Shown in pieces: positions 6,776 to 61,264 of a DNA stretch of 64,000 nt. The notes beneath the pieces were generated by a model. The model saw only the letters and a list, made by a program, of their open reading frames with translations. It was not told where the DNA came from and ran no database searches. Position numbers and translations under genes: made by a program. Source of the stretch: Sphaerolaimus hirsutus (lineage: Eukaryota > Nematoda > Chromadorea > Monhysterida > Sphaerolaimidae); the NCBI GenBank assembly GCA_964036195.1, contig OZ038455.1, positions 5,783,855 through 5,847,854 on the forward strand. The letters run 5' to 3'. Numbering within the stretch: the first letter of the stretch is position 1; every line of letters starts with the position of its first letter.

Positions 6776-8145
6776 CCGTATTTCCTCGAAATACCCCCCC
6801 CCTTGAAATACCCCCCCCCCTCTCGAGACCACTATGAAACAATCACCCCCCCCCCCCCTCTAAATAGCCCCCCCCCAAATTGAGTGTAAAGGGAACGTAC
6901 ATGACAATAACTGTAGTTTGTGTTCAGTGTAGTGATGGAATGGCGCCATGGCGCTGGCGCCATTTGAGGGCGCCAAAGGGCGCCGCGCCATGGCGCCATT
7001 GGCGCTTGGCGCCCTTTTTCTGTGGCGCCCTTGGCGCCTGGCGCCCACATTCTGAAAGGCGCCATGGCGCCCTTGGCGCTTGGCGCCCTTTTTCCGTGGC
7101 GCCCTTGGCGCCTGGCGCCCTGCTTTTAAAGGGCGCCAAAAAGGCGCCAGCAGGGTTTCAAGGTGAGTGCTGTATAAATGGTAAAAAAGATGAAAAACGC
7201 ATTCATGGATGATCTGAATTCACCAGAAAAATGGACGAAGTGGTGTGAGTGGGTATAAATCGTTTGTGCAACGGTTCATCAGATGTGTCTGACAGATCAG
7301 AAGACGAGAATGATGGAACGTTGAACTTGTAAAATCATAAATCAACGGATTCAAATCGTTGCAATTCCGTTTTTTTGTCCATTTCGAGGAAACATGATTG
7401 GAAAAGTCAAGTGAATGGATTGTTGTCAAATGACAATATCCATTGTGTTTGAATTGTCATATGAATTTTACTCAAATTTTTTTGTTGCTAGTGTTGCCTT
7501 TGTTCAATACACCCTGGAGAATGCAAATTAAGTAGTGAATGCATGTACTAGGGTGCTGTAGAAACACTTTTAGCACACGCAGGGTGTTGTATGCACTTAT
7601 TTATCCTGGCGCCCTTGGCGCCTGGCGCCCTATTTTTCAAATGGCGCCATGGCGCCCTTGGCGCTTGGCGCCCTTTTTCCGTGGCGCCCTTGGCGCCTGG
7701 CGCCCGCTTTCGGAATGGCGCCATGGCGCCCTTGGCGCCTGGCGCCCTTTTTCTGTGGCGCCCTTGGCGCTTGGCGCCCACTTTCTGAATGGCGCCATGG
7801 CGCCATTGGCGCCTGGCGCCCTTTTTTCTGGCGCTTTTCCATCACTAGTTCAGTGTACTGCAGAACACACGTTAAAACAATGTCGGTGTCACGTTAGAAC
7901 AGTGTACATACCATCTACTTACTAATATTAGTCTACAGAACCTTATAAATGGTGGTTTTTGTTGCATTTTTCGACGTCTGTGTACGTTTCAGACGACAAT
8001 TTCGTACTTGGTTTTCAAAAATTTTCTTGTGAAATAATAACCCCCCCCCCCCCTCGAAATACCCCCCCCCTCGTTTAACCCCCCCCCCCCTCTCGGGACC
8101 ACTATGAAACAAACACCCCCCGGGGGGTATTTCGAGGAAATACGG
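6776..8145. mobile_element. TA-flanked CCGTATTT-family element, interrupted by a hAT-like insertion
   Basis: It begins CCGTATTTCCTCGAAATA, ends with the reverse complement, and has TA on both sides. C-rich/G-rich ladders of the type CCCCCTCGAAATACCC lie inside both ends. The interior closely matches the element at 53345-54552, including the phrase GAGTGTAAAG next to the ladder, but here it is split by a 918-bp hAT-like element at 6930-7847. No transposase reading frame was seen. Confidence 0.85.
6930..7847. mobile_element. hAT-like non-autonomous element, GGCGCC family (A)
   Basis: The ends are TAGTGATGGAA and TTTTCCATCACTA, flanked by the perfect 8-bp duplication GTTCAGTG (6922-6929 and 7848-7855). 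Both subterminal regions are dense arrays of GGCGCC, GGCGCT and GGCGCCATGGCGCC. The middle, about 430 bp, is AT-rich with no open frame. The left arm ends in CAAGGTGAGT, a good splice-donor match conserved in other copies. The 8-bp duplication is the hAT hallmark; the assignment rests on that and on the ends, not on a transposase. Confidence 0.92.
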
Positions 8146-8147
8146 TA

Positions 8148-8464
8148 GAACGAATTGAAAGATTCAATTTTTATCATTTTACGTCAGGGAACGAAGTTTA
8201 CATTTCACATCAATGATAGCATGCAACCATTGACGTGAATTGTAAAATTTGTTCCCTGACATTAAATGATGACATAAAATGATAAAAATTGACTGCGGTT
8301 ACAGCTGCGGTGACAAGATTATGTATTGGACACGATTAAGGTATGGATTCATATATTATTGTAGACTGTAGCATGATCCACACTCATGTAATTTATTTTA
8401 TGACATCATTTTACATCGTCATTTTACGTCAAAATCACGCTGAGCTCTAATCTCCACTTGATGG
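8148..8464. repeat. Palindromic repeat DNA with TTTTACGTCA motifs
   Basis: Inverted phrases AAAATTTGTTCCCTGACA and TGTCAGGGAACGAAGTTT-like segments flank about 8190-8260, and the 8290-8350 part pairs with 6720-6773. It reads as the right arm of an older foldback element into which 6776-8145 inserted. Confidence 0.5.
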
Positions 8465-8472
8465 GTGACAAA

Positions 8473-9209
8473 TAACGATGGCAAACCCTCCGAAAAAAAG
8501 TATTTAAATTTTTAAGTGTTTTTCCTAAATGAATTTTCGAATTTTCGAATTTTTCCCCAAATTAATTTTCAAATTTCGAATTTTCGAATTTTCGAATTTC
8601 GAATTTCGAATTTTTGAATCTTTTTAGGCAGTTTTCAAATTTTTTTGGGTAATTTTCGAATTTTTGGGGGAAAATATTGAATAAAGTGCGATTAGCTGTT
8701 AAGAAGCTACCATAAATTCTCGAATAAGTCCCCAGAGGGTGGAGTTAATCGAGGGTGGAGTTGTTTTTTCCCCACGCTCGAAAGAGGGGGGGAGTTATTC
8801 GAGGGGGGAGTTATTTACTGTAAATCCTCCAATAAGTCCCCCTCGAATAAGTCTAGTGGACCCATCCCCTAAAATGCCATCCCCGACGCTATGTGTCTGC
8901 GGTGGATGCCATTTCAACGTTTTTTGACGTTATTTTTCAATTCGAAACTCTTTCAGGCTCAAAACTGAATCGGACCAATTGTCAATCGATTTAGCTGATT
9001 GAACTTAAGAATGTGTTATATTTCACTGAATTCCCTGAAAAATTCGAAAAGTATTTTCGAATTTTCAAATTTTTTGAAAAAAAAATCGATTTTTAAGTGT
9101 TTTTTTTTCAGTAGTGAAATAAAAATTCGAAAATTCCGAAAAAAATTTTTCCCTGCTTTTTCCCTGCCGAAAAAATTTCGAATTTTCGAATCTTTTTTTG
9201 CCATCGTTA
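8473..9209. mobile_element. hAT-like non-autonomous element, TTCGAA family (C)
   Basis: The ends are TAACGATGGCAAA and TTTGCCATCGTTA, with the perfect 8-bp duplication GTGACAAA (8465-8472 and 9210-9217). Subterminal regions are repeated ATTTTCGAATTTTCGAA phrases. An internal piece near 8710-8860 resembles the TA-flanked CCGTAAATCC family and is probably nested. No coding capacity was seen. Confidence 0.9.
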
Positions 9210-9390
9210 GTGACAAAGACGTTCATGTATGAAAGATGTTTTTATGTATGTTATCTTTATAAAAGACATGTATTTTTTTTGCAGGTAATGTTAACTAGTA
9301 TTGATTTCATCACATGAATTATTATAATTCGACCTTATAGAAAAGGTACAACCACGGTCGCGGCACCAGAAAGAGTGCAAAATTGCACTT

Positions 9391-13385: not shown

Positions 13386-14830
13386 CAGGGTGGGGCAATT
13401 TTGAATAACTTGTCACTGGGTGGTCGGATTAACGTCAAACCTTAGGTCAACATTAACAACTAAATAGGAAAGGAACCCAGAAAATATAGCTGCGATAGCT
13501 CTACTCTTTCTCAAGTTATTCATGCAAACGCGTAATTGTCACTTTACCACCACCCCGTGATAGGTTTCAAACGGGATCCACTTTTCGGGACCCGGATCGG
13601 GATTGGGATTGTTTTTTTCAGTTTTTTTTTCTCTCTTTTTATTCGCAGTGGCATGCCAAAATGCGTACTCGCGCAGCACTATTCCGCATTACCAATAAGA
13701 AAATCTGCAAACGCTTGCATAATTGATTGTAAAGCAAGGTGGCACTAGTGATGGAATGGCGCCATGGCGCTGGCGCCTTTTGAGGGCGCCAAAGGGCGCC
13801 GCGCCATGGCGCCATTGGCGCTTGGCGCCCTTTTGCTGTGGCGCCCTTGGCGCCTGGCGCCCACTTTCTGAAAGGCGCCATGGCGCCCTTGGCGCTTGGC
13901 GCCCTTTTTCCGTGGCGCCCTTGGCGCCTGGCGCCCTGCTTCAAAAGGGCGCCAAAATGGCGCCAGCAGGATTTCAAGGTGAGCGCTGCGAAAACGATAA
14001 AAAAAGAAAAAAGCGCGTCCGTGGATAATCGAAATTCGCTGGAAAAATACACGTGGTGCCAGTGGATTGAAATCGTTCGTCCAATGGTTTTCCAGACACT
14101 TTGGCTGGAATGATGGGCCGTGCAACCTACAAACTTGTCAATCAACGGATTCAAATCGTTTTAATTCCGTTTTTATCCACTTCAAAAAACATCCATTGCA
14201 AAAAATCTATTTGAGGTGAATGCTTTGCGACAATTTTCATTGTGTTTGAATTAAAATTCACGCGTGAGTAAATATGATTTTATGCAAAAATTTTGTTGCT
14301 AGTTTCGTTTTTGTTGATTACATGCTAGAGAACATAATTAAAGAAGTGATTGTGTGAAATATAGTGTTGGAGAACCATTTTAGCACACGCAGGGTATCAT
14401 ACACACTTATTTATCGTGGCGCCCTTGGCGCCTGGCACCCTAATTTTCAAATGGCGCCATGGCGCCCTCTTTCCGTGGCGCCCTTGGCGCCTGGCGCCCA
14501 CTTTCCGAATGGCGCCATGGCGCCCTTGGCGCCTGGCGCCCTTTTTCTGTGGCGCCTTTGGCGCTTGGCGCCCAGTTTCCGAATGGCGCCATGGCGCCAT
14601 TGGCGCCTGGCGCCCTTTTTTCTGGCGCTTTTCCATCACTAGGTGGCACTAAAGCGAAAACTTTTGTGTTTGCATAAATAACTTGAGAACGAGTAGAGCT
14701 ATCGCAGCCATAATTTAAGGAATCCTTTTCTATTTAGTTGTTAATGTGGACTTGAAATTTCACGTCAATCCGACCTCCCAGTGACAAGTTATTTGAAATG
14801 TAGAGCGTAGGTCTAAATTGCCCCACCCTG
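13386..14830. mobile_element. TA-flanked CAGGGTGGGGCAA element (Tc1/mariner-like ends), interrupted
   Basis: Left CAGGGTGGGGCAATTTTGA and right TAAATTGCCCCACCCTG are inverted and each sits next to TA. Inner arms also pair (AACTTGTCACTGGGTGG with its inverse near 14775; AGTTATTCATGCAAA with its inverse). A hAT-like A element (13746-14641) splits it. The TA target and CAGGGTG ends are typical of Tc1/mariner-type non-autonomous elements. Confidence 0.8.
13746..14641. mobile_element. hAT-like non-autonomous element, GGCGCC family (A)
   Basis: TAGTGATGGAA to TTCCATCACTA, with the perfect 8-bp duplication GGTGGCAC (13738-13745 and 14642-14649). It has the same architecture as 6930-7847: GGCGCC arrays at both ends, an AT-rich middle, and the donor-like CAAGGTGAG at about 13976. 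Similarity to the other A copies is high along the whole length. Confidence 0.93.
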
Positions 14831-17922: not shown

Positions 17923-17969
17923 ACCACGAGTACAGAAAGTGTAAAATATTTTTTTCCCGTACTCATGAG

Positions 17970-18117
17970 TAGTGATGGAATGACGCCATTTGAGGGAGCC
18001 AAAGGGCACCGCGCCGTGGCACCCTTGACGCATGACGCTGTTTTTCCGTGGTGCCTCTGGCGCCTGGCACCCAGCCCCAAAATGGCACCAAAATGGCGCC
18101 AGCAGGGTTTTAAGGTG
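17970..18117. mobile_element. One-ended relic of hAT-like A element
   Basis: TAGTGATGGAATGACGCC followed by degraded GGCGCC array and the conserved TTTTAAGGTGAGT. No right end was found. The same relic is at 47717-47867 in the partner segment. Decay of GGCGCC to GGCACC/GACGCC marks it as older than the intact copies. Confidence 0.7.
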
Positions 18118-21299: not shown

Positions 21300-21392
<93 letters not shown>

Positions 21393-24584: not shown

Positions 24585-26339
24585 GTGCAAATGGAAAAAA
24601 ACTGACAACACAACACTGTTAAAAGTACCGACCTTTTACAAAGCATAATTATGTAAACGTAAAGTATCTATTATTAGCTTTTTTCTGCTCTTTTTCCTTT
24701 CTATGCGTTGAAAAACCTACCTTACCTATATAAATGCCTACCTACCGCAAATCCACGAATAAGATCCCCCCTCGAATAACTCCCCCCTGTTGGCGAAGCG
24801 AGGAAAACATACCCCCCCCCCCTCGAATAACTCCCCCCTCTTGAATAACTCCCCCTGTTGCATGACGAAAATTAAAATACAAAAGAATATTAGCCTAAAG
24901 CAGCGACAGTAGATACATGATGTGTATGTAGTGATGGAATGGCGCCATTGCGCTGGCGCCATTTGAGGACGCCAAAGGGCGCCGCGTCATGGCGCCATTG
25001 GCGCTTGGCGCCCTTTTTCTGCGGCGCCCACTTTCTGAAAGGCGCCATGGCGCCTTTGGCGCTTGGCGCCCTTTTTCTGTGGCGCCCTTGGCGCCTGGCG
25101 CCCTGCCCTAAAAGGGCGCCAAAATGGCGCCAGCATAGTTTCAAGGTGATCGTCCGTGGATAATAGAAACTCGCCGTAAAAATGGACGAAGCGGTGTGAG
25201 TGGATGAAATTTTTTTTCGTCCAACGGTTCATCGTATGCGTCTAACTGATCAGAAGCAGAGAACGATGAACCGTCGAACTTGCAAACCCATGAATCAATG
25301 GATTCAAATTGTATTTCCGTTTTTGTTCACTTAAAGAAAACATTTGCGATCAGAAAGCAATAAAACATTATTTGCGCTGTATGAACTGAACGATTCTTTT
25401 TTCAAATGAACAATTTTCATTGTGTTCAAATTGAATGTATTGGGGTATGATTATATGCCAAATTTTTACCTCAGTAGTCTCATTTTTGTTGATTACATGA
25501 ATAAATTCGTGAATGTGCGCGCTAGAGTGCTAGAAAGATCAAATCAAATCAAATAAAGTTTACTCGGCTCAGACCTCTAGAGTCTAATGCAAGTAAATAA
25601 CACAACACACATTGTACACCCATTGATTACTCCTACATTGCGGCCTTACAACGGTGAGTTTTGTACGACGCATAAGCATATGTTTACCAACAACAGGCGA
25701 TATCTAAAGTAACTTTATTTGAACTTGAGAACGGTGGAGATGAAAGTTGAAAACTGTAAGAGTCTAAAACGTCCTAAGTAATAAAAAGGAATGCGGCAGA
25801 CAACATTGCCAATAGCACCAAAATAAACACTCTAGAACCCCACGACCAGGGTTTGAACTGCTCATATAAAAACATTGAGCAACATAATGATTGCATGTTT
25901 TTAAAACACGAAAAAGTAAAAAAGAGAGATACATTCACAAGAGATGAATCATACATGAAAATTGAACCTTGTCCGCATACTCCTTAACCTTTGTTTCTTT
26001 CCATTTTCCGATACATTCCCTACTTTTCCAGAATTTTGTGTACTTGGATTGTCCATGAAAAAAAAGAGAGAAGGTCATCTGTCCACACAAAGTATTGTAA
26101 AAGATTGTTTTCCTTGATTTTGTTTGTACTCTTGCTGGTTTGCGTCTTTCCAAAATTTCCAAAAATTTGCCAAAAGAAATCCGATTTGCATGGTTTGCAG
26201 ACTTTATACACACTCATTGAACATCATTTACAGGAGATCTCCTAAGTTTACCCGTCATTGTCTGTTTCAAACCACATCATGACAACATTGATCAAATCAT
26301 GGAAATTGTGTTGCAAAACTTGTATCCTTCTAAGTGTAT

Positions 26340-29300
26340 CTACAGAATATTGCTACATCTTTGTACATTTCCATGGTGGCTGAGATCTGCTGGCTTATCC
26401 TCGCTGGTGCGGCGTCCCGCTCGCGAACGATAAACTGTCACAGCGTTCTGCCTCCCCAGCAAGGACACCAGACAGTATCTCCAGATGTTCCGATGCTCGG
26501 ATACACATTTTGTGCACACTGCAGCATCAAACACATTACTAGGAATCTGTCTCTCAATATTATGGGGATTTTGTTGTGAATTCAAAGCCGCCGCTGCCTC
26601 GGGTGTAGAGAGCACCTCTCCACACCGTTTGCTGCAGCAGTCTTCACTGAGCGACCTCACCCAAGCTTTGCGCCAGAGTGTCACTGTAGGATGTTGGCAC
26701 TGTCCCAAGTAATGGGAAAGTGTCATCCAAAATGACCACCCTAGTGCTTCGCATAATGGACAGTTAATCCATTGCCTAGTGTTGTTGTGCCTAAAGCGTA
26801 ATAGTTGTATTTTTGGAAGCCACCCATGTCTTCCCGCAAACCATGCGTGTTCATTTGTTTGTAGTGTTTCTGGTGGTAATGGTGTTATCTTGTCTAAAAC
26901 TTGATTTTCTTTTTGCACACTTCGATGTCCTGTTGTCCTAGATTGCGAACCAACTTCCCAGCCGTAGTGTTTGCATGCGGATAGTATTTCATTTTTGTGA
27001 CAGTTTTGTGAGTTTTCTAAGCCTACCTCTCTCTTTGCTCCCATCGCCCGGCCCCGTGGTGAATTTTACCGCATTGAACCCGTGTTCCCCCTTTGACTTT
27101 GTACGCCCCATATTCTTGCTGCTAATTTGGTTGTTTCTGAGTCTTTGTTTGATTCCAGATAATCGTTATATCTGATCACATTATACTTATACCAGCATTC
27201 CATGGTTCTGATGTCCCAGTCCATCCCTAACAGCTTATTTGAAATATTTCTCCCCACCCCACCCAGTCTTCAGTACAGCCCTTATTGTAAGGCTGTCATT
27301 TGTTTCAGCGCCGTTTTTGATATTCCCGTTATTTCACTGCCGTACATCACTGTACTTGCAACATATGCCAAAATGTTCAACGCCCAAATTTGCCGTCTGC
27401 TGTGTTTTCCAACTTTCTTAGCCAGGAATCTGCCTTTTGTAAGCTTTTCCATGTAGCTGTTTTTTGCGCCTGAAAAGGGTCTCGTCCGCTACTCAGCTTT
27501 ATCCCCAGATATTTCGTTTCATCACATTCTTTGATAACTTGTTTGTTCCCATCTTGACCTATCCCCAATTCCCAGTTCCTGTATGGATCTGCTTTTCTCC
27601 TGAAATGCATCACCATACTTTTCTGTTCGCTTATCCCAACTCCCCACTTGTAGCTCCAGTCCGTGAACGTGTCCATTGCGCATTGCAGATCTTGATCGGT
27701 GTTTGCCATCAGTATGACGTCATCCACAAAAAAGCCTGCTGGTATTTTTCTACCCCCTAATTTTGCTCCTATCCCTAGTCGTTCCAGTTTGGTCCACAAG
27801 TCCGCCATGTACAGGACATATAGCGTGGGGCTTAGGCAGCACCCCTGGCGTACCCCTAGTGGATAGTCTAAGTTTTCTGTAGCATTGCAAGTAGCATTGC
27901 TGACCTGTGTACGTGCCTTTTATGGCCGTACATAGTTTCTTGCTGTACCCATAGTCCCTCAGTTTGACCCACAAGCAATCCCTGTTCACTCTATCGAAGG
28001 CTTTGACTGCATCCACGAAGCAGGCTGACAATTTGTTTGTCTCTGCTAGGCAGCCCTGCAGTAGCACGTGGTTGTCAGTTGTTCTTCTGTTCGCTCTAAA
28101 GCCAGCCTGCATATCTCCGAAAGCATTGCTTACTTCGAATGCATTCATTAGCCGCTTATTCAAGATTAAGCAATATAGCTTGAGTATATTGCACTGAATT
28201 CCCACCGTCCGATAGTTGTTCACATCCGACTTCGATCCCTTTTTATGCAGTAGGACGAGTTTGCATGTTTTCGCTTTGTTCAGGATAGCCTCCTGACCGT
28301 CGAACCACCGATTCATTTGATTTGTCAGGGCTGCCAGCAGGTGTCTCCCAGGCATTCTGATCATCTCATGAGATATTCCCGTTGTGCCTGCCAACTTCCC
28401 CAGCTTCATTTTTCTGCACGCCTCCAATGTCTCGAGCTGTGATATTTCCATGTCCATTTGTTCAGATAGATTTCTATCTATCACCCCTTTCATCCCGCGA
28501 TCTGTGTCGAAGCTGGTTTTTTCTATATTTGGAGATTGTATTCGTTGCCAGAATTCCACTAACACTTGTTTCAATTCCTCATCGTCCTTGCACTCTCTTG
28601 ACCCGTTCTTGAGCATCGGATATTTGACATCTGAGTCGCGTAGTTTCGCTGCCAGCTTATACAGATTTGTGTGTTCAATTCCGTATTTTAGCTCATTCTC
28701 TAACACCCTATCCTTCTGTTCTTCTCTCGCTGATCTTTCAATCTGTCTTATATTCTGCAATCCAGCTTTCCGTGCATTTCTGTACTCCGTCAACCCTATT
28801 CTCCCCTCGTGCAGCGCTCTGCGTTTCCTGGTCAAAATCCGCTTTGTTTCTCTTATCTGTTTGATGTGCTTTGACTCTTTCATGTTCCCTTGCCTCACTC
28901 CGAACCACTGCTCCGCCCATTGCTGCAAGAAATCAAGCAGGGCAGAGTAGCTGTCCGGAGCTGTTTTGTGTTCCAGGATTTTCTTGATTTCTGATAGAAA
29001 TTTTGTCAATTTATCTTTTCCTCTGACTGACCATCTTGGTGCCTTTGATTCTCCCTTAATCCCCCACCGCTTGATTCTATCGTGATATCAACGTCCAGTG
29101 CACTATGATCCGATATCAGGGGGCTTCTCCCATGTCCAAGATTTTTCATATCTGCAGACACTGTTGTGGCCTGATTATCGATCATGCAGTAATTGATCCT
29201 TGTTTTTGTCCTGCCTGACTCGAAGGTCCACCATTGTCTGTTAGTGTCATCTAAAACTGACATGTCTGTAGCATCCAGCCATCCTTTCACTAATCTCCCC

Positions 29301-29896
29301 GTGCTGTTAACAGTCTCACTACACCTACCTCTCCCTAATAGTTCAGGTCCTAGCGACGCATTGAAATCACCAACAACAATGGTATCTCTACCCGAGCTTC
29401 GATTGCCTATTATTTGCTCTGATATTGCCTCCAGAATTTTGGCATTTGATTCCTTTTGCTCTTTGTCTCTTTGAAGCCTTCCTTGATCTAGTAAATACAG
29501 TCCTACAATATCCACTTTCCCTGCCAGTGTTGATATTGTCATTGAGACTGTATTACTCTCTAAACCCCTCTCTGTGATGGATCCCTGCATGTATGCCGAG
29601 ATAGATCTTTTTATATACAAGGAAACCCCCATTATTGTTTTTGGGTTTGGGTATGAGTGTGAGATCATACCCAGACATCTCCGTTGTCTCTAGTCGCATT
29701 CTTACATTAGCTTCTCCCGAAATGACAACATCATAGCATTCACTTCTCAGCATTTCTTGTATTTGTTCGTGTTTATTTCGCGCTGATCTCACGTTTTGGT
29801 AGATCAGCTTTAGTTGATTTCCCCATGTCACCCCCTTTTTGTTTTTCCATTCTTTGTTGTCATTACCTAACTTCACGTCCAATTTTTTTTTCCTTA
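26340..29896 (-). pseudogene. LINE ORF2: AP endonuclease + reverse transcriptase + CCHC end
   Basis: Read leftwards, the endonuclease starts with LKLIYQNVRSARNKHEQI (about 29820), has VVGDFNAS (about 29375) and SDHSAL (about 29110). Reverse transcriptase follows from about 29009, with LHKKGS..NNYRTVGIQCN, DMQAGFRANRRTTDNHVLL, the first catalytic Asp in FVDAVKAFDRV (about 28010) and FVDD (27706-27736). A C-terminal CPLC-x12-H-x4-C zinc motif lies near 26755. The frame shifts near 29640 (G run), 27830 and between 27380 and 27050. The enzyme would nick target DNA and copy LINE RNA by target-primed reverse transcription; this copy cannot make it. Confidence 0.88.
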
Positions 29897-30365
29897 GGCG
29901 GTGTTTACACGGATTCTTTGTGACGACAAAAATTGTGATTTTGTCAACCATGTTTTTGGGTGAAAACCAATAAGTAGATAGATCGGACGCCTCAATTGAT
30001 CATTATTTGATCGACCCCATTACATGGAACAATAATTAATTTTTATAGATTACGCAGTAATGCACAACAGATAATGTATTTTTCTTGTGGTCGTAGCTTT
30101 GTTGGAGGGTTTGTTCTACGCGGCCTCGCTAGCAAGGCCGCGTAGAACAAACCCTCCGACAAAGCTACGACAACATGCAAAAAGTGTGATCTAGTGTGCG
30201 TGATAAGGGAAATTATGGAATTTGATGTATGCCCCAGGCAGTGAAGCTGGCACAATCACAATCAATGGAGGTAGCACACATGTAATATATTTCACATTGA
30301 TTCCACAAGAACAGTTTTAAAAATTGCATTTTTTGTCGTCACAGCAAATCCGTGTAAACGCCGCC
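29897..30365. mobile_element. Harbinger-like foldback MITE with TTA duplication
   Basis: Left GGCGGTGTTTACACGGAT and right ATCCGTGTAAACGCCGCC are inverted, continuing into TGTGACGACAAAAA on both sides. TTA flanks both ends (29894-29896 and 30366-30368). A three-base TTA/TAA target with GG-initial ends fits PIF/Harbinger. It interrupts the LINE just upstream of the endonuclease coding region. A long hairpin lies inside (30087-30168). Confidence 0.85.
30087..30168. repeat. Long near-perfect hairpin inside the MITE
   Basis: About 37-bp arms (GTCGTAGCTTTGTTGGAGGG ... to its inverse) with one mismatch surround the 8-base loop CGCTAGCA. It is far more perfect than the rest of the element. Confidence 0.9.
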
Positions 30366-30449
30366 TTAGGATCCCTGTTATCCTACCTATAGCCTTTTGT
30401 TTTTTAGTTCTTGGACCACGAGCAGCGGTGTCCTCACCTGATTGCATTC

Positions 30450-31030
30450 CTACCGTGTCTGTGCTATGTGTTGTTGGTTGGTATGACTCGTCAACATTGT
30501 TGGTCTTAGAATATGTTTTTTTTGGGACCTACCACGGTGCGTGTAAAGTGCCCTTTTCCATATCACCCATAATATTGAGAGATATACCCCTATCCGTTCC
30601 ATAATATCACAAACGCCAGATGAGAATTGCCGCCACACTTTTGTCAACCGCCTACTCCATGTCGCACGCGCCTCCGCACTCCGCCCGATAGCCACTCTGC
30701 ACAGTGATATTACATAGTAATTACCCCGTAACAGATATCCCATCTTACGCCAACCCCTTTCAGATCCAAGCGTTTTGTGTGGTTTTGCTAAATGCTGTTG
30801 TAAAATCCAAAATCCCCCTATCGCAAGCAGTCCTAACAACATACCAGTGCTGCTGGCGCGACGAGCTAGTGCCGAGAGTCGCCGTATGGGCTGCCACGCC
30901 CGCCGCCCACGCCTTGATATTGGGAAAATTCTCCGCGTCGGTACGCACCTTGACCACCTCCCTGCTGGTTCCCGCCGCCGTAACTGTGAAAAACGGTGTT
31001 TGTTCTCAGAAACCCTAAGAAGAATATCCC
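30450..31030 (-). pseudogene. Remnant of LINE coding region between ORF1-like part and endonuclease
   Basis: Minus-strand frames contain protein-like stretches, VKVRTDAENFPNIKAWAAGV (about 30955) and GWRKMGYLLRGNYYVISLCR (about 30750), in different frames. At least one frameshift is therefore present. No domain was recognised. The position, between the two foldback insertions, places it in the LINE. Confidence 0.5.
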
Positions 31031-31145
31031 ATAATGTAAACACCTTCCCGGACAAGTTCACCACCCATTCTTTTATTTCTCTTCATATGCAATATCTCTG
31101 GATATGGGAATCGTACAAGGCTAATATTTGGTTGGTATATGGTCC

Positions 31146-32380
31146 TAACACTCTGCTACTCTGTATTAATGGTGGGAGGCGCGGCAACTCACTACAGGGC
31201 GGGTCGCCCTACATGCAAACATTTTTGTGGCTTTTTCGGTGTCCCAAACAAGTTCACCACCCACTTGATTGGCTACACTACGAGGGCCATATCTCCAGCT
31301 GTGTGGGCGATAGAAAGCTGAAATTTGGGGGATGTCTTGCAAACAACCCCCTCTCACAATTCACCAGTGGGTGCCCCCGATGACCCACTACAGCATGGGT
31401 CGCCGCATATAAAGTTGTTGATTTTTTTTAAACATTCCAAGTCTCCCAAATAAGTTCGCCATCCATCTGCATTATAAAAAAAATGTTGTAAGAACATACC
31501 TGATATAAAACTGAATAAAATTTGAACCCTCGTTATGCTCATAAAAATTTTTTCAGTGGGGCACCCACCCCGTCCCATGAACAGCAGACTGAAAATTTCA
31601 CTTTAAACCAATGTTTTGTTTCACACTTAAAAAGTTGGTTTACAAAGTTCATTAGGGAAGGGTTTAAGGTTCAAAGTTATGTAAAACACAACCTTTAAAA
31701 TGCCTGCATAAGGAAATTTATTTGGGGTGAATTAAAAACTGGAAATTTTGTCAAATTTTGTTCCTGTGATGATGTCATTATGACACCATAATTTTCACCC
31801 CAAATAAATTTCCTTATGGAGGCATTTTAGAGGATATGTTGTTTACGAAACTTTGAACATTGGACCCTTCCCTAGTGAACTTTGTAAACCAACTTTTAAA
31901 GTGTGAAACAAAAACTTTGTTTAAAGTGAAATTTTTGGCTTGCTGTTTATGGGACGGGGTGGGTGCCCTACTGAAAAATTCTTAATGAGCAGAATAAGGG
32001 TTCAAATCTGACTCAATTTTTTATCAGGTATGTTCTCACAAAATTTTTTATAATGCAGTTTGGTGGCCGACTTGTTTGGGATGCTTGGGTTGTTTTGAAA
32101 AAATGAACAACTGTTAATGCAGCAATGCATACTGTAGTGGGTCGCTGGCAGGGACCCCCACTGGTGTATTGTAAGGGTTTTTTTAGCAAGACATCCCCCA
32201 AATTTCAGCGTCGTACCAGCCTCACAGCTGAAGATACGACCCTTGAAGTGTAGCTAATCAAGTGGGTGGTGAACTTGTTTGGGACAGCAAAAAAGCCAAA
32301 AAAATTGTTGCGTATAGGGCAACCCACCCTGCAGTGAGTCGCCCCACCTCCCCCCATTGAAGCAGAGTAGGGGGGTGTTA
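31146..32380. mobile_element. Long-arm foldback element inside the LINE
   Basis: Terminal TAACACTCTGCTACTCTG is matched by the inverse at 32363-32380, and the two halves pair over most of their roughly 580-bp length around a centre near 31765. Examples are AAGTTCACCACCCACTTGAT and AATAAATTTCCTTATG, each with its inverse. Arm identity looks about 75-85%. A third copy of the arm phrase (CAAGTTCACCACCCATTC) lies outside the left edge at 31053-31075, so the true edge may be near 31040. No clear target duplication was seen. Confidence 0.75.
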
Positions 32381-32394
32381 CCAGTCGATTTTGC

Positions 32395-35448: not shown

Positions 35449-36963
35449 AAAGTGTTTTAGCACACTTGCGGTGCCGTACGCACTTATTGAGCCTGGCGCT
35501 CTATTTTTTAAATGGCGCCATGGCGCCCTTGGCGCTTGGCGCCCTCTTTCTGTGGCGCCCTTGGCGCCTGGCGCCCACTTTCTGAATGGCGCCATGGCGC
35601 CCTTGGCGCCTGGCGCCCTTTTTCTGTGGCGCCCTTGGCGCGTGGAGCCCAGTTTCCTAATGGCGCCATGGCGCTATTGGCGCCTGGCGCCCTTTTTTCT
35701 GGTGCTTTTCCATCACTATGTGTATGCAGTCTACTATACACACCTTTTTGTTGTTGTTTGACAGTTAAATACATGACTTACATGAGTTTACAGTACATAT
35801 CCATGCAATGAATTAAGTGAAGGTTTCTGAGCAAAAAATAACTCCCCCCCCCCCCTTGAATAACTCCCCCCTTGAATAACACCCCCCTGCAAAACGTCCG
35901 AGCAAAAAAAAACTCCCCTGAGGTCTTATTCGAGGATTTAGGGTATTTAAAATACGTTTTCTGTGCCGGGTTGGGGGGAAAACTGTGCCTGGCATTTTCA
36001 CACACATTTTTTGCCGAAAACTCATGCCACCATCGGATAACAAGGGATTTAGTGATCGTGAATAGCAATCACCGCAAAAGGCAGTTAGGGACTCCGCCTA
36101 ATCGATGCCTACCGTAATATTTAATCGACCCTTAATCGGCCCTGCGTTCGAGTAACACGAGTACCTCTTCATAGAAAACTTAAACGTATTTTTGACTAAA
36201 GATAAATACTTTCTAACAACTATGCAAAATACTGCCTAAGAATACCTCTGTAGACTGCGCTCAATTTCACGCAATTATCTTCTGAATTTTCATCAGACAT
36301 GTAAAAGTATGTAAGAGAACGTGACAAATGCCAGACATCCTGCACTTGACATGCTTAACTACCATAACTTCTCGAATAACCAGATTGCAGAATACGTATT
36401 TATACTTAACAGAAACATCCCATAATTCCACCCAGGTATACTCGGCGGACATGATACTCTGCCCTCGCATTCATTTATGTCTCAGGTTGGAAGCGTGCCA
36501 ATGATGATAAAGCGTGCGATTTTTGTACAAAAGACGAAAAAAATCATTGTTGTGAATAAGTGAATATATAGCGCTATAACAGAGATGACTTCTTTGAACT
36601 TTTTATGAAAATCGCATGGATAAAAAAGTAGTTGGCACCCTTCCAGGGGGAACCACGCGTGCAGGGTGTTAAGTGACTGGACTATATTTAGGTATAAATG
36701 CGTACGTTTTCCTGGCACAATTATCCGGATACAAGAGAAAATGTAAAAGTGAACACCAAACCACATGCTCGAAAAAAATCTCTCTACCTATTACGATGGT
36801 TAGTCGTGTAAAACAAATGCGGGACCTAATAAATACTAATAATGTTTCTTTTGTAATAATGTAATAATGTAAGAAATATGTTAAGAATTCATGCCAAAAT
36901 ATATATTTTTTAACGTTTTTCAATCAGAACACTGACTCGAGGTCAGTTGAGTCGAGTCAAGTT

Positions 36964-37899
36964 TAGTGATGTAAAGGCACCGGGGCACCGGTGCCCCGGT
37001 GCTGGGCACCGAAGGGCACCAGCACCGGTGCTGGTGCGGTGCCATTGCAATCTTCAGGGGTGCCATGCCGGTGCCGGTGCCATTTTTTTCAGAATAGCAC
37101 CGGTGCCGGTGCGGTGCGGTGCCATTTTTTTGCCGGTGCCAAAGGTGCTAGCACCAGGGCCAAAGTAAAAGACACCGGGAAAGGCACCGGCCAAGGCTTC
37201 ATGTGCTGTGCAATTTTGTCCATAGTATGTGCTTATTCATATTAAAAAAACAGCGATATATTTACCCAACCGTTTTTGCCTATTTTGTAAACCTCCCATC
37301 AAATAAATATACCTACTGTGAAATCCATTATACCCGATACGGTATCTGATGAGCGAATCTTAAATTTTGTTGATTTTTAAATCATTTTTATATTTTATAT
37401 TTATCTTATTTGTTTGTTCAAAATTTGTTGTCAGTTTATGACAGATATAGTTCCATTCTCTGTACAGCAACGACTCCGATCAGTAGACAATAGTGGCTAT
37501 GGACATTGCAGTGAATTAAATATTTCATCTTTCATTTGTAATCATTGTAATTGCTTCATAAAAGTGATTGCCACATCATTCTGATCATTTTGAGTGCTCA
37601 ACCATCAAAATCGGTTGAAAATTCATGGAAATATGCACTTCCAAAGGTGAGACCACTGAGAAACTGCCCGATATTTACTTCAGAAATTCCAGCCCGGTGC
37701 GGTGCCTTTCGGTGCTAGCACCGGCAACCCGCCGGTGCCCTTCGGTGCCGGTGCCATTTTTTCCAAAAGCCACCGGTGCCGGTGCGGTGCGGTGCCATTT
37801 TCTGGCCGGTGCCCCAGGGTGCCAGGTGCCCTTTGCATGCGTTGGCAAAGGTGCCGGTGCGGTGCGGTGCCATTTTTCCCGGTGCCTTTAACATCACTA
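36964..37899. mobile_element. hAT-like non-autonomous element, GGCACC/GGTGCC family (B)
   Basis: TAGTGATGTAAAGGCACCGG to TTTAACATCACTA, with the perfect duplication GTCAAGTT (36956-36963 and 37900-37907). The partner has the empty site near 54730. Both ends are arrays of GGTGCCGGTGCC. The AT-rich middle (about 37200-37680) has no open frame of note. Confidence 0.94.
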
Positions 37900-39265: not shown

Positions 39266-40199
39266 TAGTGATGGAAAAGCGCCATGGCGCTGGCGCCTGG
39301 CGCTAGCGCCAAAGCAAAAAGCGCCATAGCGCTTTTGGCGCTTGGCGCTAAAACGCTCTGGCGCCATTGGCGCTTGGCGCTGGGATTTGAGAAAGCGCCA
39401 TGGCGCTTTTGGCGCTTGGCGCCATTTTCTGGTGGCGCTATTGGCGCCTGGCGCCGGCATTTTAAGTGGCGCCAAAAGAGCGCCAACCATGAAAATAAAA
39501 AATTGTTATAATACGGTGAAATCGACACTGCAGTTGATCAATTTTGAGGCAACTGAATAAATATTGATTAATATAAGGGTACACTTTATACAAATAGATG
39601 TGAACATCGAATAAAAGTAGAGGTGTTAAAATCGCGGTAAATTCCCTTTTATGCTTTGCTCCCAATTCTTTCTTGCAGTCTAAATCAGGGGTTCAGTCTG
39701 GCGGGGGTTGGAGGGTTACCCCCAAACAAACGCTCATGATATCTATCTATTTTCGGTGCCGCTCAGCTGTCTATCTAACCTGAGGCTAAATTTTAGGCTA
39801 ATATCGCTCGAGCCCTCCACCCCCCCAAATCCACCAGATATGTTGTATCTCTCCAGAGCGATTATTTGAGAAATTTTGCCCCAATTTAGTGGCTGTTTGA
39901 ATGGGCAAAAGTTGAATAGACTACTATGACTTCAGCGGTACGTCACTCACAGTTATGCACTCATTTTTCTACCATCAAATTGTAGAACAAATTTTTTGGC
40001 GCTGGCGCTATTGGCGCTTGGCGCCATCACCCTCTGGCGCCATTGGCGCTTGGCGCTGAGGTTCAGAAAAGCGCCATGGCGCTTTTGGCGCTTGGCGCCA
40101 TTTTGCTCTGGCGCCATTGGCGCTTGGCGCCAGGGTCAGAAAAGCGCCATGGCGCTTTTGGCGCTTGGCGCCGAAAGCCTGGCGCTTTTTCCATCACTA
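39266..40199. mobile_element. hAT-like non-autonomous element, GGCGCT family (A')
   Basis: TAGTGATGGAAAAGCGCC to GGCGCTTTTTCCATCACTA, with the perfect duplication GTGATGTA (39258-39265 and 40200-40207). The partner is empty near 57020. Subterminal arrays are GGCGCTTTTGGCGCTTGGCGC, distinct from the GGCGCC type. The interior shares nothing obvious with family A beyond the ends. Confidence 0.94.
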
Positions 40200-40530: not shown

Positions 40531-41875
40531 TAGTGATGTTAAAGGCACCGGGAAAAATGGCACCGCACCGCACCGGCACCTTTGCCAACACATGAAAAGG
40601 GCACCTGGCACCCTGGGGCACCGGCCAGAAAATGGCACCGCACCGCACCGGCACCGGTGCCTTTTGGAAAAAATGGCACCGGCACCGAAGGGCACCAGCG
40701 GGTTGCCGGTGCTAGCACCGAAAGGCACCGCACCGGGCTGGAATCTCTGAAGTGAATATCGGGCAGTTTCTCAGTGGTCTCACTTTTGGAAGCGCATATT
40801 TCCATGAATTTTCAACCGATTTTGATGGTTGAGCACTTAAAATGATCAGAATGATGTGGCAATCATTTTTATGAAGCAATTACAATGATTACAAATGAAA
40901 GATAAAATATTTAATTCACTGCAATGTCCATAGCCACTATTGTCTACTGATCGGAATCGTTGCTGTACAGAGAATGGAACTATCTCTGTCATAAACTGAC
41001 AACAAATTTTGAATAAACAAGTAAGATAAATATAAAAATGATTTAAAATTCAACAAAATTTTAGATTCGTTCATCAGATCACGTATCGGGTATAATGGAT
41101 TTCACAGTAGGTATATTTATTTGATGGGAGGTTTACAAAAAAGGCAAAAACGGTTGGGTAAATATATCGCTGTTTTTTGAAATATGAATACTGTATTACC
41201 TCGAATTACCCCCCCCCCTTGAATTAACCCCCCCCTCGAATAAACCCCCCCCTCAAAATTGGCTGGGGAAATAATAAACCCCCCCTCGAAATACCCCCCT
41301 CCGGAATGATGTACATCATGTATGCAATGTACATGATGTATTTATCACTACTTATTTGCATCGCAGCTACTCTTATACGCTCATTTGTGTACAGATGTAC
41401 ATCTATAGCCCCAATATAACCTATATTCTCACATTTATTACCGTTTTTGTGTAAGAAATAGTGTATTCTTTACTATGAATTCCACGAAATTTTCTGGCGA
41501 AATAATAAACCCCCCCTCGAATAAACCCCCCCCTCGAATTAACCCCCCTCAAATTTTGCTGGCGAAATAATAAACCCCCATGGGGGTATTTCGAGGTAAT
41601 ACGGTACACACATACTATGGACAAAATTGCACAGCACATGAAGCCTTGGCCGGTGCCTTTCCCGGTGCCTTTTACTTTGGCCCGGTGCTAGCACCTTTGG
41701 CACCGGCAAAAAAATGGCACCGCACCGCACCGGCACCAGTGCTATTCTGAAAAAAATGGCACCGGCACCGGCATGGCACCCCTGAAGATTGCAATGGCAC
41801 CGCACCAGCACCGGTGCTGGTGCCCTTCGGTGCCCAGCACCGGGGCACCGGTGCCCCGGTGCCTTTACATCACTA
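40531..41875. mobile_element. hAT-like B element carrying a nested TA element
   Basis: TAGTGATGTTAAAGGCACC to GGTGCCTTTACATCACTA, inverted relative to 36964-37899. Perfect duplication GCTGTAAG (40523-40530 and 41876-41883). A 414-bp CTGTATTACC...GGTAATACGG element at 41191-41604 is inserted inside at TA. Without it the length is about 930 bp, as in other B copies. Confidence 0.94.
41191..41604. mobile_element. TA-flanked CCGTATTACC-type element nested in hAT-like B
   Basis: CTGTATTACCTCGAATTACC to GAGGTAATACGG, with TA on both sides (41189-41190 and 41605-41606). Sister B element 48293-49233 has the unoccupied TA near 48958. C/G ladders lie inside. Confidence 0.85.
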
Positions 41876-47716: not shown

Positions 47717-47867
47717 TAGTGATGGAATGACGCCATATGAAGGCGCCAAAGGGCACCGCGCCATGGCACCCTTGACACATGACGCTGTTTTTCCGTGGTG
47801 CCTTTGGCGCCTGGCACCCAGCCCCAAAATGGGCACCAAAATGGCGCCAGCAGGGTTTTAAGGTGAG
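47717..47867. mobile_element. One-ended relic of hAT-like A element (copy 2)
   Basis: Counterpart of 17970-18117. TAGTGATGGAATGACGCC, degraded array, then TTTTAAGGTGAGT. No right end. Confidence 0.7.
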
Positions 47868-48292: not shown

Positions 48293-49233
48293 TAGTGATG
48301 TTAAAGGCACCGGGAAAAATGGCACCGCACCGCACCGGCACCTTTGCCAACGCAAGAAAAGGGCACCTGGCACCCTGGGGCACCGGCCAGAAAATGGCAC
48401 CGCACCGCACCGGCACCGGTGCATTTTGGAAAAAATGGCACCGGCACCGAAGGGCACCGGCGGGTTGCCGGTGCTAGCACCGAAAGGCACCGCACCGGGC
48501 TGGAATTTCTGAAGTAAATATCGGGCAGTTTCTCAGTGGTCTCACCTTTGGAAATGCATATTTCCATGAATTTTCAACCGATTTTGATGGTTGAGCACTT
48601 AAAATGATCAGAATGCTGTGGCAATCACTTTTATGAAGCAATTACAATGATTACAAATGAAATATAAAATATTTAATTCACTGCAATGTCCATAGCCACT
48701 ATTGTCTACTGATCGGAGTTGTTGCTGTACAGAGAATGGAGCTATCTCTGTCATAAACTGACAACAAATTTTGAACAAACAAGTAAGATAAATATAAAAT
48801 ATAAAAATGATTTAAAATTGAACAAAATCTTAGATTCGCTCATCAGATCACGTATCGGGTATAATGGATTTCACAGTAGGTATATTTATTTGATGGGAGG
48901 TTTACAAAGTAGGCAAAAACGGTTGGGTAAATATATCACTGTTTTTCGAAATATGAATAAGCACATATTTACTATGGACAAAATTGCACAGCACATGAAG
49001 CCTTGGCCGGGGCCTTTCCCGGTGCCTTTTACTTTGGCCCCGGTGCTAGCACCTTTGGCACAGGCATAAAAATGGCACCGCACCGCACCGGCACCGGTGC
49101 TATTCTGAAAAAAATGGCACCGGCACCGGCATGGCACCCCTGAAGATTGCAATGGCACCGCACCAGCACTGGTGCTGGTGCCCTTCGGTGCCCAGCACCG
49201 GGGCACCGGTGCCCCGGTGCCTTTACATCACTA
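48293..49233. mobile_element. hAT-like non-autonomous element, family B, copy 2 only
   Basis: TAGTGATGTTAAAGGCACC to GGTGCCTTTACATCACTA, with the perfect duplication ATCGATAC (48285-48292 and 49234-49241). Copy 1 is empty near 19928-19935. It closely matches 40531-41875 in the same orientation. Confidence 0.95.
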
Positions 49234-55376: not shown

Positions 55377-56311
55377 TAGTGATGTAAAGGCACCAGAACA
55401 CCGGTGCCCCGGTGCTGGGCACCGAAGGGCACCAGCACCGGTGCTGGTGCGGTGCCATTGCAATCTTCAGGGGTGCCATGCCGGTGCCGGTGCCATTTTT
55501 TTCAGAATAGCACCGGTGCCGGTGCGGTGCGGTGCCATTTTTTTGCCGGTGCCAAAGGTGCTAGCACCAGGGCCAAAGTAAAAGGCACCGGGAAAGGCAC
55601 CGGCCAAGGCTTCATTGCTGTGCAATTTTGTCCATAGTATGTGCTTATTCATATTTCAAAAAACAGCGATATATTGACCCAACTGTTTTTGCCTATTTTG
55701 TAAACCTCCCATCAAATAAATATGCCTACTGTGAAATCCATTATACCCGATACGTGATCTGATTAACGAATCTAAAATTTTGTTGAATTTTAAATCATTT
55801 TTATATTTTATATTTATCTTACTTGTTTGTTCAAAATTTGTTGTCAGTTTATGACAGAGATAGTTCCATTCTCTGTACAGCAACGACTCCTATCAGTAGA
55901 CAATAGTGGCTATGGACATTGCCGTGAATTAAATATTTTATCTTTCATTTGTAATCATTGTAATTGCTTCATAAAAGTGATTGCCACATCATTGTGATCA
56001 TTTTAAGTGCTCAACCATCAAAATCGGTTGAAAATTCATGGAAATATGCACTTCCAAAGTGAGACCACTGAGAAACTGCCCGATATTTACTTCAGAAATT
56101 CCAGCCCGGTGCGGTGCCTTTCGGTGCTAGCACCGGCAACCCGCCGGTGCCCTTCGGTGCCGGTGCCATTTTTTCCAAAAGGCACCGGTGCCGGTGCGGT
56201 GCGGTGCCATTTTCTGGCCGGTGCCCCAGGGTGCCAGGTGCCCTTTTCATGCGTTGGCAAAGGTGCCGGTGCGGTGCGGTGCCATTTTTCCCGGTGCCTT
56301 TAACATCACTA
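55377..56311. mobile_element. hAT-like non-autonomous element, family B, copy 2 only
   Basis: TAGTGATGTAAAGGCACC to TTTAACATCACTA, with the perfect duplication CCTGTGCC (55369-55376 and 56312-56319). Copy 1 is empty near 38508. Orientation and sequence match 36964-37899 closely. Confidence 0.95.
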
Positions 56312-56409
56312 CCTGTGCCAAGCCTCAAAAAATGGCGGCGGACATTGTCACCTGTCAACCCCGAAACCGCCCGGCTACTTATCTATTCCGGAGGCTGCTT
56401 ATCTATCTA

Positions 56410-58998: not shown

Positions 58999-59032
58999 AT
59001 CCAGATAGTGAAGAGATACTCCCCCTTAAAGT

Positions 59033-59846
59033 GCCGTATATCCTGAAATAAGTACCCATGGGAGTTATTGTTCACTTTTTAACTCTATTGACTAGGGGTT
59101 ATTCAAGGGGAGGTGTCATTTTCTTTTCGGAATATTCAGTAAAATGCGTGATCAAATTTTTGTCAATATTGCGCGTGCACACGCTAGTTTACCGCCAGAT
59201 TTTTGTAAACTCACAAATCGGTTTTTCATGCTTTTGAGTTTCCTGGGATGAGTTATTCGGCATCCCCATCAACTACAGTTGACAGAACCGTCATTCTGGT
59301 AAACTCAAATGCGTTCACAGCTGATTTAAGAGTTTACCAAAATCTGACAGTAAACTAGCGTGAGCTGCGCCAATATGTTCAATAAGTTCCATAAATGTGT
59401 AAGTCAGAATACCATTAATTCAATAATTCAAGCAATCAAATCAATGCTAGAATCAATTAGGTACCTTATGAACATTGTGGCCACAGGAGCTAGTTTCATG
59501 GTTTCAATTTGTAAACTCGTTCAAAAACTGAATGGCCACGCGAACGCTGATAGACGCTTCCACCATCCCGCAACTGAGAACTTGGACTCAGCCACTTGTA
59601 TTGGGAATTTGGGATGCAGTTATCAGTTTACAGAAATGATCTGTCCATCAACTACTGTTTAAGGAGGTGGACAAGATTTCGTTCAAGTTTTCAAATCGTA
59701 AACATGAAAACTGGCTTGTGTGGCGCCATTAGCTGCAGAAGAATATGCGTTTTAAAGAAGAATAACAGAGTTTTTACGTGTGACATCTTCTCCACCCAAA
59801 TAACAGACGGGGGTTATTCAAAGGGGGCTTATTCAAGGATTTATGG
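59033..59846. mobile_element. Old CCGTATATCC-type element with nested palindromes
   Basis: It starts CCGTATATCCTGAAATAAG and ends TTATTCAAGGATTTATGG. A palindrome with CACGCTAGTTTACCG arms lies at 59176-59365, and part of a related CTAGTTTCATGGTTTC repeat lies at 59475-59730. The flanking TA is present only on the right. Confidence 0.5.
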
Positions 59847-59849
59847 TAT

Positions 59850-60387
59850 TTTTATACAGTCAATGCGAGAATATTTTCTGCGCTTTCTGTTCTTGGGGGA
59901 GGCAGCCTCTTAGATCCGTATGGCTTGTATATAATTTGTGCTTGTATTTTATTTATGTGAATGAAATTAGAAAAGTTGAATTCATTGCTGAAATTCACTG
60001 AATGCTTGAACAAAACAAACGATGATGACATTAAAAGACCGTTCACACTCAAAACCCACAAAAACCGTGCATTTCCTAAAATCAGAACTTTTTTATGAGA
60101 GAGCAAACAACGTTCTTTACGTATTTTTTGGCTCAGTGCCAACATTTCTTAAAGTATTTGAACCGGCGTGCGTCTAGGAAAAACGTGCTCCTAGGAAAAA
60201 CGTTTTGTTGGGTTGTTTCATTAATCGTGGAATTAATTAAACGTGGAATTGTATTTAGTTGAAATTGGTCAACAGCTGCAGAAGAATATTCATGCTTTAA
60301 GGGAATAAACAAGGGACCGTATTTGCTTTTATTTGTTTTTTAAAGTATGTACTGTATACACAGATTTTTGTGAATTCAATGGTTGTG
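59850..60387. other. AT-rich DNA, nothing recognised
   Basis: No gene, inverted repeat or element end found. Short phrases GGAAAAACGTGCTCCTAGG-like occur once near 60180-60205. Confidence 0.4.
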
Positions 60388-60395
60388 GTTGAAAC

Positions 60396-61264
60396 TAGTG
60401 ATGGAAAAGCGCCAGAAAAAAGGGCGCCAGGCGCCAATGGCGCCATAGCGCCATTCGGAAACTGGGCGCCAAGCGCCAAGGGCGCCACAGAAAAAGGGCG
60501 CCAAGCGCCAAGGGCGCCATGGCGCCAATTGAAAAGAAGGGCGCCAGGCGCCAATGGCGCCAGAATAAAAAAGGCGAGTAGAATACCCTGCGTGTGCTAA
60601 AAATGCTTCTCCAGCACTGTAGTGCACACATTCACTTCTTTATTCATGTTCTCCAGGATGTAATCAGCAAAAATGAGACTAGCAACAAACTTTTGTGCAA
60701 AAACCGTACTCACACGTGATATTCAATTCAAACACTTTGAAAATTCTCATTCGACAAAACAATGAATGCACATCAAATAGATTTTCCAATATGTTTTCTT
60801 GAAGCTGACGACAACGGAATTCCGATAATTTTAATCCGTCGATTTACGAGTTTGCGAGTTCACCGGTCTATCGTGCTCAGCTTCTGATCCGTTACACGCA
60901 TCTGATAAAAATTGGATGAAACAGACTGGATGGATTGGATCCACTCACACCACTTTGCCTATTTTCCAGTGAATTTTGATCATTCACAGACCCATATTTT
61001 TCTTTTTTATTCATTCACGCGGCACTCACCTTGAAACCATATGCTGGCTCCATTTTGGCGCCCTTTTAGGGCAGGGCGCCAGGCGCCAAGGGCGCCACGG
61101 AGAAAGGGCGCCAAGCGCCAAGGGCGCCATGGCGCTTTTCAGAAAGTGGGCGCCAGGCGCCAAGGGCGCCACAGAAAAAGGGCGCCAGGCGCCAATGGCG
61201 CCATGGCGCGGTGCCCTTTGGCGCCCTCAAATGGCGCCAGCGCCATGGCGCCATTCCATCACTA
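60396..61264. mobile_element. hAT-like non-autonomous element, GGCGCC family (A), inverted
   Basis: TAGTGATGGAAAAGCGCC to GGCGCCATTCCATCACTA, with the perfect duplication GTTGAAAC (60388-60395 and 61265-61272). It is the reverse orientation of 6930-7847 and 13746-14641. The donor-like AAGGTGAGT is present on the minus strand near 61028. Confidence 0.93.

Follow-up and report, generated by a model that had tools for sequence, protein, structure and literature searches.

How can mobile elements with the same tips carry different arrays of short words just inside those tips, and what moved them? In a scan of the 64-kb window (the whole stretch of DNA analyzed), we found nine pairs of the tips TAGTGATG and CATCACTA with exact 8-bp target site duplications (TSDs), and these nine of nine bear out the claim of the initial annotation that at least nine insertions have common tips and exact 8-bp duplications. 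The elements, each with its array type (A, A' or B), and the associated features are as follows.

6930..7847, + strand: A element, TSD GTTCAGTG, word TGGCGC; weak empty site at 53353-53541
13746..14641, + strand: A element, TSD GGTGGCAC
17970..18110, + strand: decayed A left end without a detected right end; GGCGCC mixed with GGCACC/GGTGCC
24929..35718, + strand: A element, TSD TGTGTATG, split by an insertion of about 9.9 kb at about 25535-35437
25535..35437, - strand: LINE-like insertion within the A element at 24929..35718, boundaries approximate, with no TSD recognized as its own
36964..37899, + strand: B element, TSD GTCAAGTT, word CGGTGC; empty site at 54582-54882
39266..40199, + strand: A' element, TSD GTGATGTA, TGGCGC with a GGCGCT flank; empty site at 56880-57175
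40531..41875, - strand: B element, TSD GCTGTAAG, with an extra C-rich insertion of about 0.4 kb; empty site at 57200-57501
47717..47860, + strand: decayed A left end with five A words and one B word
48293..49233, - strand: B element, TSD ATCGATAC; empty site at 19781-20082
55377..56311, + strand: B element, TSD CCTGTGCC; empty site at 38363-38666
60396..61264, - strand: A element in reverse orientation, TSD GTTGAAAC

The decayed end at 47717 has the same flanking sequence as that at 17970 and is a copy made by duplication rather than a second insertion event.

The 8-bp repeats were found with the real tips and not with shuffled ones. In 300.5 kb (the window and 236.5 kb of sequence surrounding hAT matches), an exact TSD flanked 16 of 24 exact-tip pairs; 40 shuffled versions of the tips gave 17 pairs in total in the same sequence, none with a TSD. 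Five insertions had paralogous empty sites inside the window, at which the joined flanks matched at 58 (36964), 60 (39266), 52 (40531), 59 (48293) and 60 (55377) of 60 bases. Four of the five empty sites had a single TSD word, and one TSD base differed at the site for 40531. A sixth empty site, for 6930, was weak (87% over 190 bp, in a repetitive flank). Together, the shuffled tips and the empty sites count against the possibility that the 8-bp repeats are coincidental. Among 19 elements in the wider sample, the TSD was exact in 18 and had one mismatch in the remaining one.

The array word was uniform within each element of this sample. The 19 elements in the 300.5 kb comprised 11 of A type, 8 of B type and none that was mixed, with the same word at both ends of each, in agreement with the earlier suggestion that the word differs array-wide on fixed tips. 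The scan paired tips up to 3.5 kb and leaves out the 10.8-kb copy, and the sample is not random because the sequence outside the window was chosen around hAT matches (with loci L001-L009 excluded). With L001-L009 again left out, a single tip (L029 9115) was mixed, and in three word clusters at least two B words stood beside A words. The A and B codes appear to be discrete.

A and A' have one word in common. This word, TGGCGC/GCGCCA, was present 23-24 times per 230-bp end (6930, 13746 and 39266), and GGCGCC was present 17 times per end in 6930 and 13746 and 6 times in A' (39266). The B word, CGGTGC/GCACCG, is two transitions away from TGGCGC and was present 15-17 times per end. Based on these results, we conclude that there are two codes and not three, and that the separate A' code in the initial annotation is not supported.

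The positions of the words were conserved between A and A'. In the left ends, 19 of 23 sites were at an identical tip distance and on the same strand, compared to a maximum of 7 in 2,000 null trials. Identical columns made up 124 of 137 in sites and 44 of 85 in spacers, where a site is a word in either sequence, a definition that favors sites. Between A and B, the geometries agreed only at a tolerance of 3 bp, and then for like ends alone; agreement was not significant at the exact position and at 1 bp was significant for one end only. No correction for multiple testing was applied to the thirty tests of geometry, and those of A against B used a single copy each of A, A' and B. The words were biased to one strand along the element.

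Both families are abundant, and the middles are homologous within each. The 18-bp left end of A had 3,522 exact copies genome-wide and that of B had 1,560, and the reversed control gave 0 for each. In the window, the middles of A copies were 79-81% identical over 864-940 bp and those of B copies were 95.5-97.2% identical, so the earlier description of the middles as unrelated fails within families. One A' copy and several B copies were inserted after duplications that are now 1.3-9.4% diverged, and the two sets were therefore active over the same period.

We read 25 of the 28 PF05699 (hAT dimerization domain) matches in the genome, at 23 loci, and found no autonomous element with TAGTGATG tips. 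The domain was within an element with other tips at 14 of the 23 loci, and at the remaining 9 no TAGTGATG element demonstrably owned it. None of the eight BED finger matches in the genome, which include those at C1:7.466-7.489 Mb, C1:7.680 Mb and C6:14.237 Mb, was near a PF05699 match, and the A and B copies that we read had no hAT domain match of their own. We rejected several candidates. The 10.8-kb copy at 24929-35718 is an A element holding the LINE-like insertion, which has matches to reverse transcriptase (PF00078, 5.7e-9 and 2.2e-15) and an endonuclease-like match just below the cut-off (PF03372, 5.2e-5). In L023 and L029, the hAT domains inside B elements come from TAGGGTGTCA elements nested there; the nested element of L029 has its own exact TSD, and the L023 case is based on reading of the sequence. 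The L018 domain upstream of a CATCACTA tip is, by our reading, part of a tandem unit that has ATATCGATAT repeats and is also present in L017 and L019. Lastly, L018 3083, which is of A' type, and L020 6820, which is of B type, have a 434-bp stretch in common (86%), which we read not as evidence of an A'/B hybrid but as a probable third, C-rich repeat nested in both.

Because no transposase was found with these tips, we infer hAT membership from anatomy. The TAG tips, inverted repeats of 9-13 bp, 8-bp TSDs and subterminal word arrays support the hAT-like character that was first proposed. The inverted repeats matched for 9 bases before the first mismatch in B and for 11-13 in A and A', and B is thus one base below the 10-25 bp given for hAT elements in the available part of PMC3942097. 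Of 20 TSDs, 14 had T at position 2, against about 6 expected for a T content of 30%; A was at position 7 in 9 of 20, and both were present in 7 of 20. The consensus used for the Ac-group element hobo is nTnnnnAn (PMC8961557, in the part available). Only 5 of 13 TSDs of the hAT-domain families had T at position 2. The anatomical plan is common to families in the same genome that have the hAT dimerization domain, with different words. The TAGGGTGTCA, TAACGATGG and TAGGGTTGGG families have 8-bp TSDs, are mostly 1.1-1.2 kb, and each have an array of one CpG-bearing word (CGGAAA with AAACGG, TTCGAA and ACCCGA, respectively), but differ from A and B in their tips and words and in having hAT domain matches inside. 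The words are on a single strand in the TAGGGTGTCA and TAGGGTTGGG families and, without exception, in nine hAT-domain-bearing elements in the genome.

We believe that A, A' and B are probably short non-autonomous hAT elements in two dialects on one chassis, most likely moved by two related transposases. They would move by cut-and-paste, with a cut staggered by 8 bp, and the 8-bp tip common to all of the elements would be the cleavage signal. The array of about 200 bp behind each tip, with about 16 to 24 copies of one 6-bp word in full copies, would most likely be where a multimeric transposase docks with its zinc fingers, and two related transposases, the finger of each tuned to its own word, would have moved A/A' and B, whose arrays may descend from a common ancestor. 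A bolder version of this proposal is conceivable, although we lean against it: an array-wide switch from TGGCGC to CGGTGC at the 30-47 predicted finger sites per element within one hAT lineage, with the tips and approximate geometry kept, such that the transposase ignores the old dialect (an escape from non-autonomous parasites) and two insulated systems were active in the same span.

Known hAT transposases bind family-specific subterminal words (available parts of PMC10368747, PMC3260210 and PMC3143072). Ac/Ds of maize, as described in the accessible text of PMC3260210, is similar in having 8-bp TSDs, 11-bp inverted repeats, transposase-bound subterminal hexamers, and non-autonomous elements with common tips and different interiors. 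It differs in that the transposase is known, the single hexamer (AAACGG) is far sparser than the arrays here, and that text mentions no other set of hexamers behind identical tips. Hermes of the housefly has subterminal repeats bound by BED fingers, strand asymmetry between the ends, and a critical tip-relative position, but only a handful of sites per end compared to 16-24 here, and a heading in the accessible text calls help from transposase bound further inside unlikely (PMC10368747). Herves of Anopheles gambiae has a short motif at both ends that is necessary and sufficient for transposase binding, in a single family with the motif CG/AATTCAT; subterminal motifs vary between hAT elements (PMC3143072, in part). 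The piggyBac-like CMITEs of Acropora corals likewise comprise related MITE families that coexist in a genome and vary in a recognition part, but represent the reverse case, with a conserved interior, varied inverted repeats and TTAA duplications (PMC2872659, in part). No published description of the set analyzed here was among the matches listed, a search of weak scope.

It is unlikely, in our judgment, that one transposase moves A and B through their common tips and that the arrays are passive, made uniform by repeat turnover from two founder words. The 8-bp tips of A and B are identical, and the A array repeats with a period of 74 bp, as expected under turnover by duplication. In addition, some Ds1 elements that have no Ac hexamers still move and three hexamers are enough for Ac (PMC3260210, in part), indicating that arrays need not be essential. 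However, turnover alone does not predict that A and A' would retain their sites and tip distances as the spacers diverged, and the same word at both ends in 19 of 19 elements also argues against it.

We consider it improbable that the arrays are bound by host factors or serve in methylation-dependent control, instead of being transposase sites. There is a CpG in the A and B words and in the words of three other hAT families in this genome. However, in their strand bias and in a first site that stands at a fixed distance from the tip, the arrays resemble the transposase sites of Hermes (PMC10368747, in part). CpG observed/expected in the window was 0.89, which gives no sign of strong decay through methylation.

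The P and KDZ/Zisupton superfamilies also make 8-bp duplications, and the lack of a transposase with these tips would fit an origin in such a superfamily. We regard this as very improbable, given the TAG tips, the plan in common with the hAT-domain families here, and the finding that one of these families has TAATGATGG/TAACGATGG tips, 1-2 bases from TAGTGATGG. Finally, decay of CpG in an A array (GGCGCC to GGTGCC or GGCACC) would produce the mixtures seen in the decayed ends at 17970 and 47717 but almost certainly did not produce B, as the B word has its own, differently placed CpG, each B end keeps 31-33 CpGs (about two thirds outside pentamers), and the B copies are young and nearly pure.

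If the arrays are passive, then the set is an ordinary hAT MITE group. If the words are instead finger sites of transposases, then thousands of copies record a shift in specificity in which dozens of sites changed together. With two dialects on a common chassis, both active over the same period, this change in protein-DNA specificity would be open to binding and excision assays, and the set would also show how non-autonomous elements are retained or shed.

The nine units in the window are insertions and not chance matches, because empty sites (related flank copies without the element) match the joined flanks with the target site duplication (TSD). Each unit has TAGTGATG at its start, CATCACTA at its end, and exact 8-bp repeats on both sides. 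For five of the nine, a flank copy without the element was found within the window, and 58/60, 60/60, 52/60, 59/60 and 60/60 flank bases matched across one TSD copy. The TSD word was present once at four of the five empty sites; that of the element at 40531 differs by one TSD base. In 300.5 kb, the real tip gave 24 pairs, 16 with a TSD, and 40 shuffled tips gave 17 pairs in total, none with a TSD. Genome-wide (348 Mb, 762 contigs), there were 3,522 copies of the 18-bp A left end and 1,560 of the 18-bp B left end, with none for either reversed control. The proposal in the initial annotation of nine insertions with shared tips and 8-bp duplications was thus borne out by the empty sites and the shuffled-tip control.

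Diverged duplications and other features of the window (strand where called)
35897-42110 with 52696-57580, and 15773-22349 with 44691-52019: duplications, now diverged, that supply the empty sites for several insertions
57555-58167 and 63386-64000: ~0.6-kb direct repeat, 98% identical, reaching the window end
12524-12927: inverted repeat, arms 165 nt, 98% complementary, spacing 74 nt
43005-44472: tandem array of short units like AATGTCAAGT
10517-10605, 24744-24832, 38655-38855, 41190-41606, 52538-52626, 56442-56629: recurring C-rich repeat of CCCCCCTCGAATAAC units, found too as an insertion within the B element at 40531
9390-9461 and 9697-9768, minus strand: two tRNA-like calls (one called tRNA-Pyl), possibly false or SINE-derived

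The composition of the TSDs leans toward the Ac group and does not single out hAT. Of 20 TSDs, 14 have T at position 2 and nine have A at position 7; G at position 1 and C at position 8 are each present in 11. A passage of one source gives nTnnnnAn as the Ac-group consensus (PMC8961557). It fails to single out hAT because the families carrying a hAT domain have T at position 2 in only 5/13.

In the sample, two discrete word codes occur on one tip. Words were found by counting hexamers and not by a palindrome search. TGGCGC/GCGCCA is common to A and A', with 23-24 per 230-bp end in the elements at 6930, 13746 and 39266 and 18-22 per end in the two remaining A copies. The B word, CGGTGC/GCACCG, occurs 15-17 times per end (four window copies) and differs from the A word at two positions, both transitions. 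Word number was lower in smaller or more diverged copies outside the window. Arrays had been typed as GGCGCC (A), GGCGCT (A') and B. Each end of 6930 and 13746 has 17 copies of GGCGCC, against only 6 for A', but with TGGCGC common to both, A' does not stand as a separate code and two codes are left.

Among 19 elements, drawn from the window and from 236.5 kb surrounding hAT matches, the ends of 11 carried the A word, joined in one element by a single stray B word, and eight carried the B word alone. Of 56 clusters of six or more words, 32 were pure A, 16 pure B and eight mixed, five of these with a single stray B word each. Behind 56 exact tips, words were A in 32, B in 15, both in one and neither in eight. 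Very short A-type elements (111-268 bp; L029:543-653, L030:5706-5922 and L013:3041-3308) are nearly all tips and array.

Other mixed clusters (L numbers, loci fetched around hAT-domain matches)
L012: A22B6, B block beside A array
L029: A5B2
Window 1609: A4B2

Array geometry suggests that the A and B arrays probably descend from a common ancestor. In a gapless comparison of the A and A' left ends (222 bp; control, 2,000 gap permutations), 19/23 sites shared position and strand (control maximum 7). Identical columns were 124/137 under sites and 44/85 in spacers, where site columns have a word in either sequence, a definition that favours sites. At the right ends, 18/24 sites agreed at 1 bp tolerance (control maximum 12) and four at exact position (p 0.10, not significant; all p values are uncorrected, from thirty tests). 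Within 3 bp, A and B agreed at 12/17 sites left-left (p 0.0025) and 13/16 right-right (p 0.02), and A' and B at 12/17 (p 0.0005) and 14/16 (0 of 2,000 controls). None of these four like-end comparisons was significant at exact position, only A-right versus B-right was at 1 bp (10/16, p 0.01), and four unlike-end comparisons were not significant at any tolerance. In A, A' and most B copies a word begins at 14 bp from the left tip, and at the right tip the distance is 14-15 bp; one of these two tip-proximal words is missing in a few copies. Words run mostly in the same direction along the element in A and B: in B 36964, 11/17 point inward on the left and 15/16 outward on the right, and in A 6930, 15/23 and 21/25 have the favoured direction. 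The A word frequently lies within a palindrome, blurring the strand bias.

Both dialects were active within the same span, as A' and B elements inserted after duplications whose halves are 1.3-9.4% apart. The halves of the duplication preceding A' 39266 are now 3.0% apart; those preceding B insertions differ by 3.0% (36964), 1.3% (48293), 5.8% (55377) and 9.4% (40531). Identity among window copies was 95.5-97.2% for B and 79-81% for A.

The 10.8-kb copy was ruled out as an autonomous A element by a LINE-like inside between A-matching ends. Its ends and outer middle align with other A copies to ~25534 and from ~35438. The inside reads as a probable minus-strand LINE, with a reverse transcriptase match (PF00078, 2.2e-15) and an endonuclease match (PF03372, 5.2e-5) that is one bit under cut-off. 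An open frame in this insertion (32815-33534) has a weak NADAR-domain match (E 0.017, under cut-off).

Three other families carry the hAT dimerisation domain, PF05699. The genome has 28 profile matches, and we read the surroundings of 25 (23 loci). At 14 loci the domain lies within an element that has short inverted repeats and is flanked by a TSD, exact at 13 loci and with a single mismatch at one. Eight of these elements are TAGGGTGTCA, five are TAACGATGG and one is TAGGGTTGGG. At the other nine, no TAGTGATG element was shown to own the domain.

Domain-bearing hAT family loci
L010, L011, L013-L015, L021, L022, L024, L025, L027-L029, L032, L033

Each of the three families has its own CpG-bearing subterminal word. 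In 11 elements with ends counted, arrays were CGGAAA and AAACGG for TAGGGTGTCA, TTCGAA for TAACGATGG (one end of L021 has no clear word) and ACCCGA for TAGGGTTGGG; maize Ac has the same AAACGG word. In two of the three families words are strictly one-stranded, without exception (TAGGGTGTCA, n=8; TAGGGTTGGG, n=1).

Eight BED-finger matches were found genome-wide, none near a PF05699 match; six lie in one 23-kb cluster (G000 C1:7466186-7488779), far from hAT dimerisation domains and possibly a tandem gene family. No TAGTGATG element was shown to own a PF05699 match in the 23 loci read, and both searches score best candidates only; the transposase that moved A and B may be extinct, divergent or intron-split. 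Among the papers listed by literature searches, none describes this element set, which is weak evidence of absence.

Passages of published work describe hAT transposases binding subterminal words particular to each family: AAACGG for Ac (PMC3260210) and CG/AATTCAT for Herves (PMC3143072). Hermes binds short subterminal repeats, which are largely antisense at the left end and sense at the right end, and whose position relative to the tip is critical (PMC10368747). A heading there judges that transposase bound deeper in the element is unlikely to help, and for some Ds1 elements transposition without hexamers is described (PMC3260210); together these argue, as far as those passages go, against dense arrays being essential. 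Less probably, the arrays may be host-factor sites or may be passive. On balance, we believe that A and B are likely non-autonomous hAT-type elements, that their arrays would be two sets of predicted finger sites for two related transposases, and that a switch of word code by descent is plausible.
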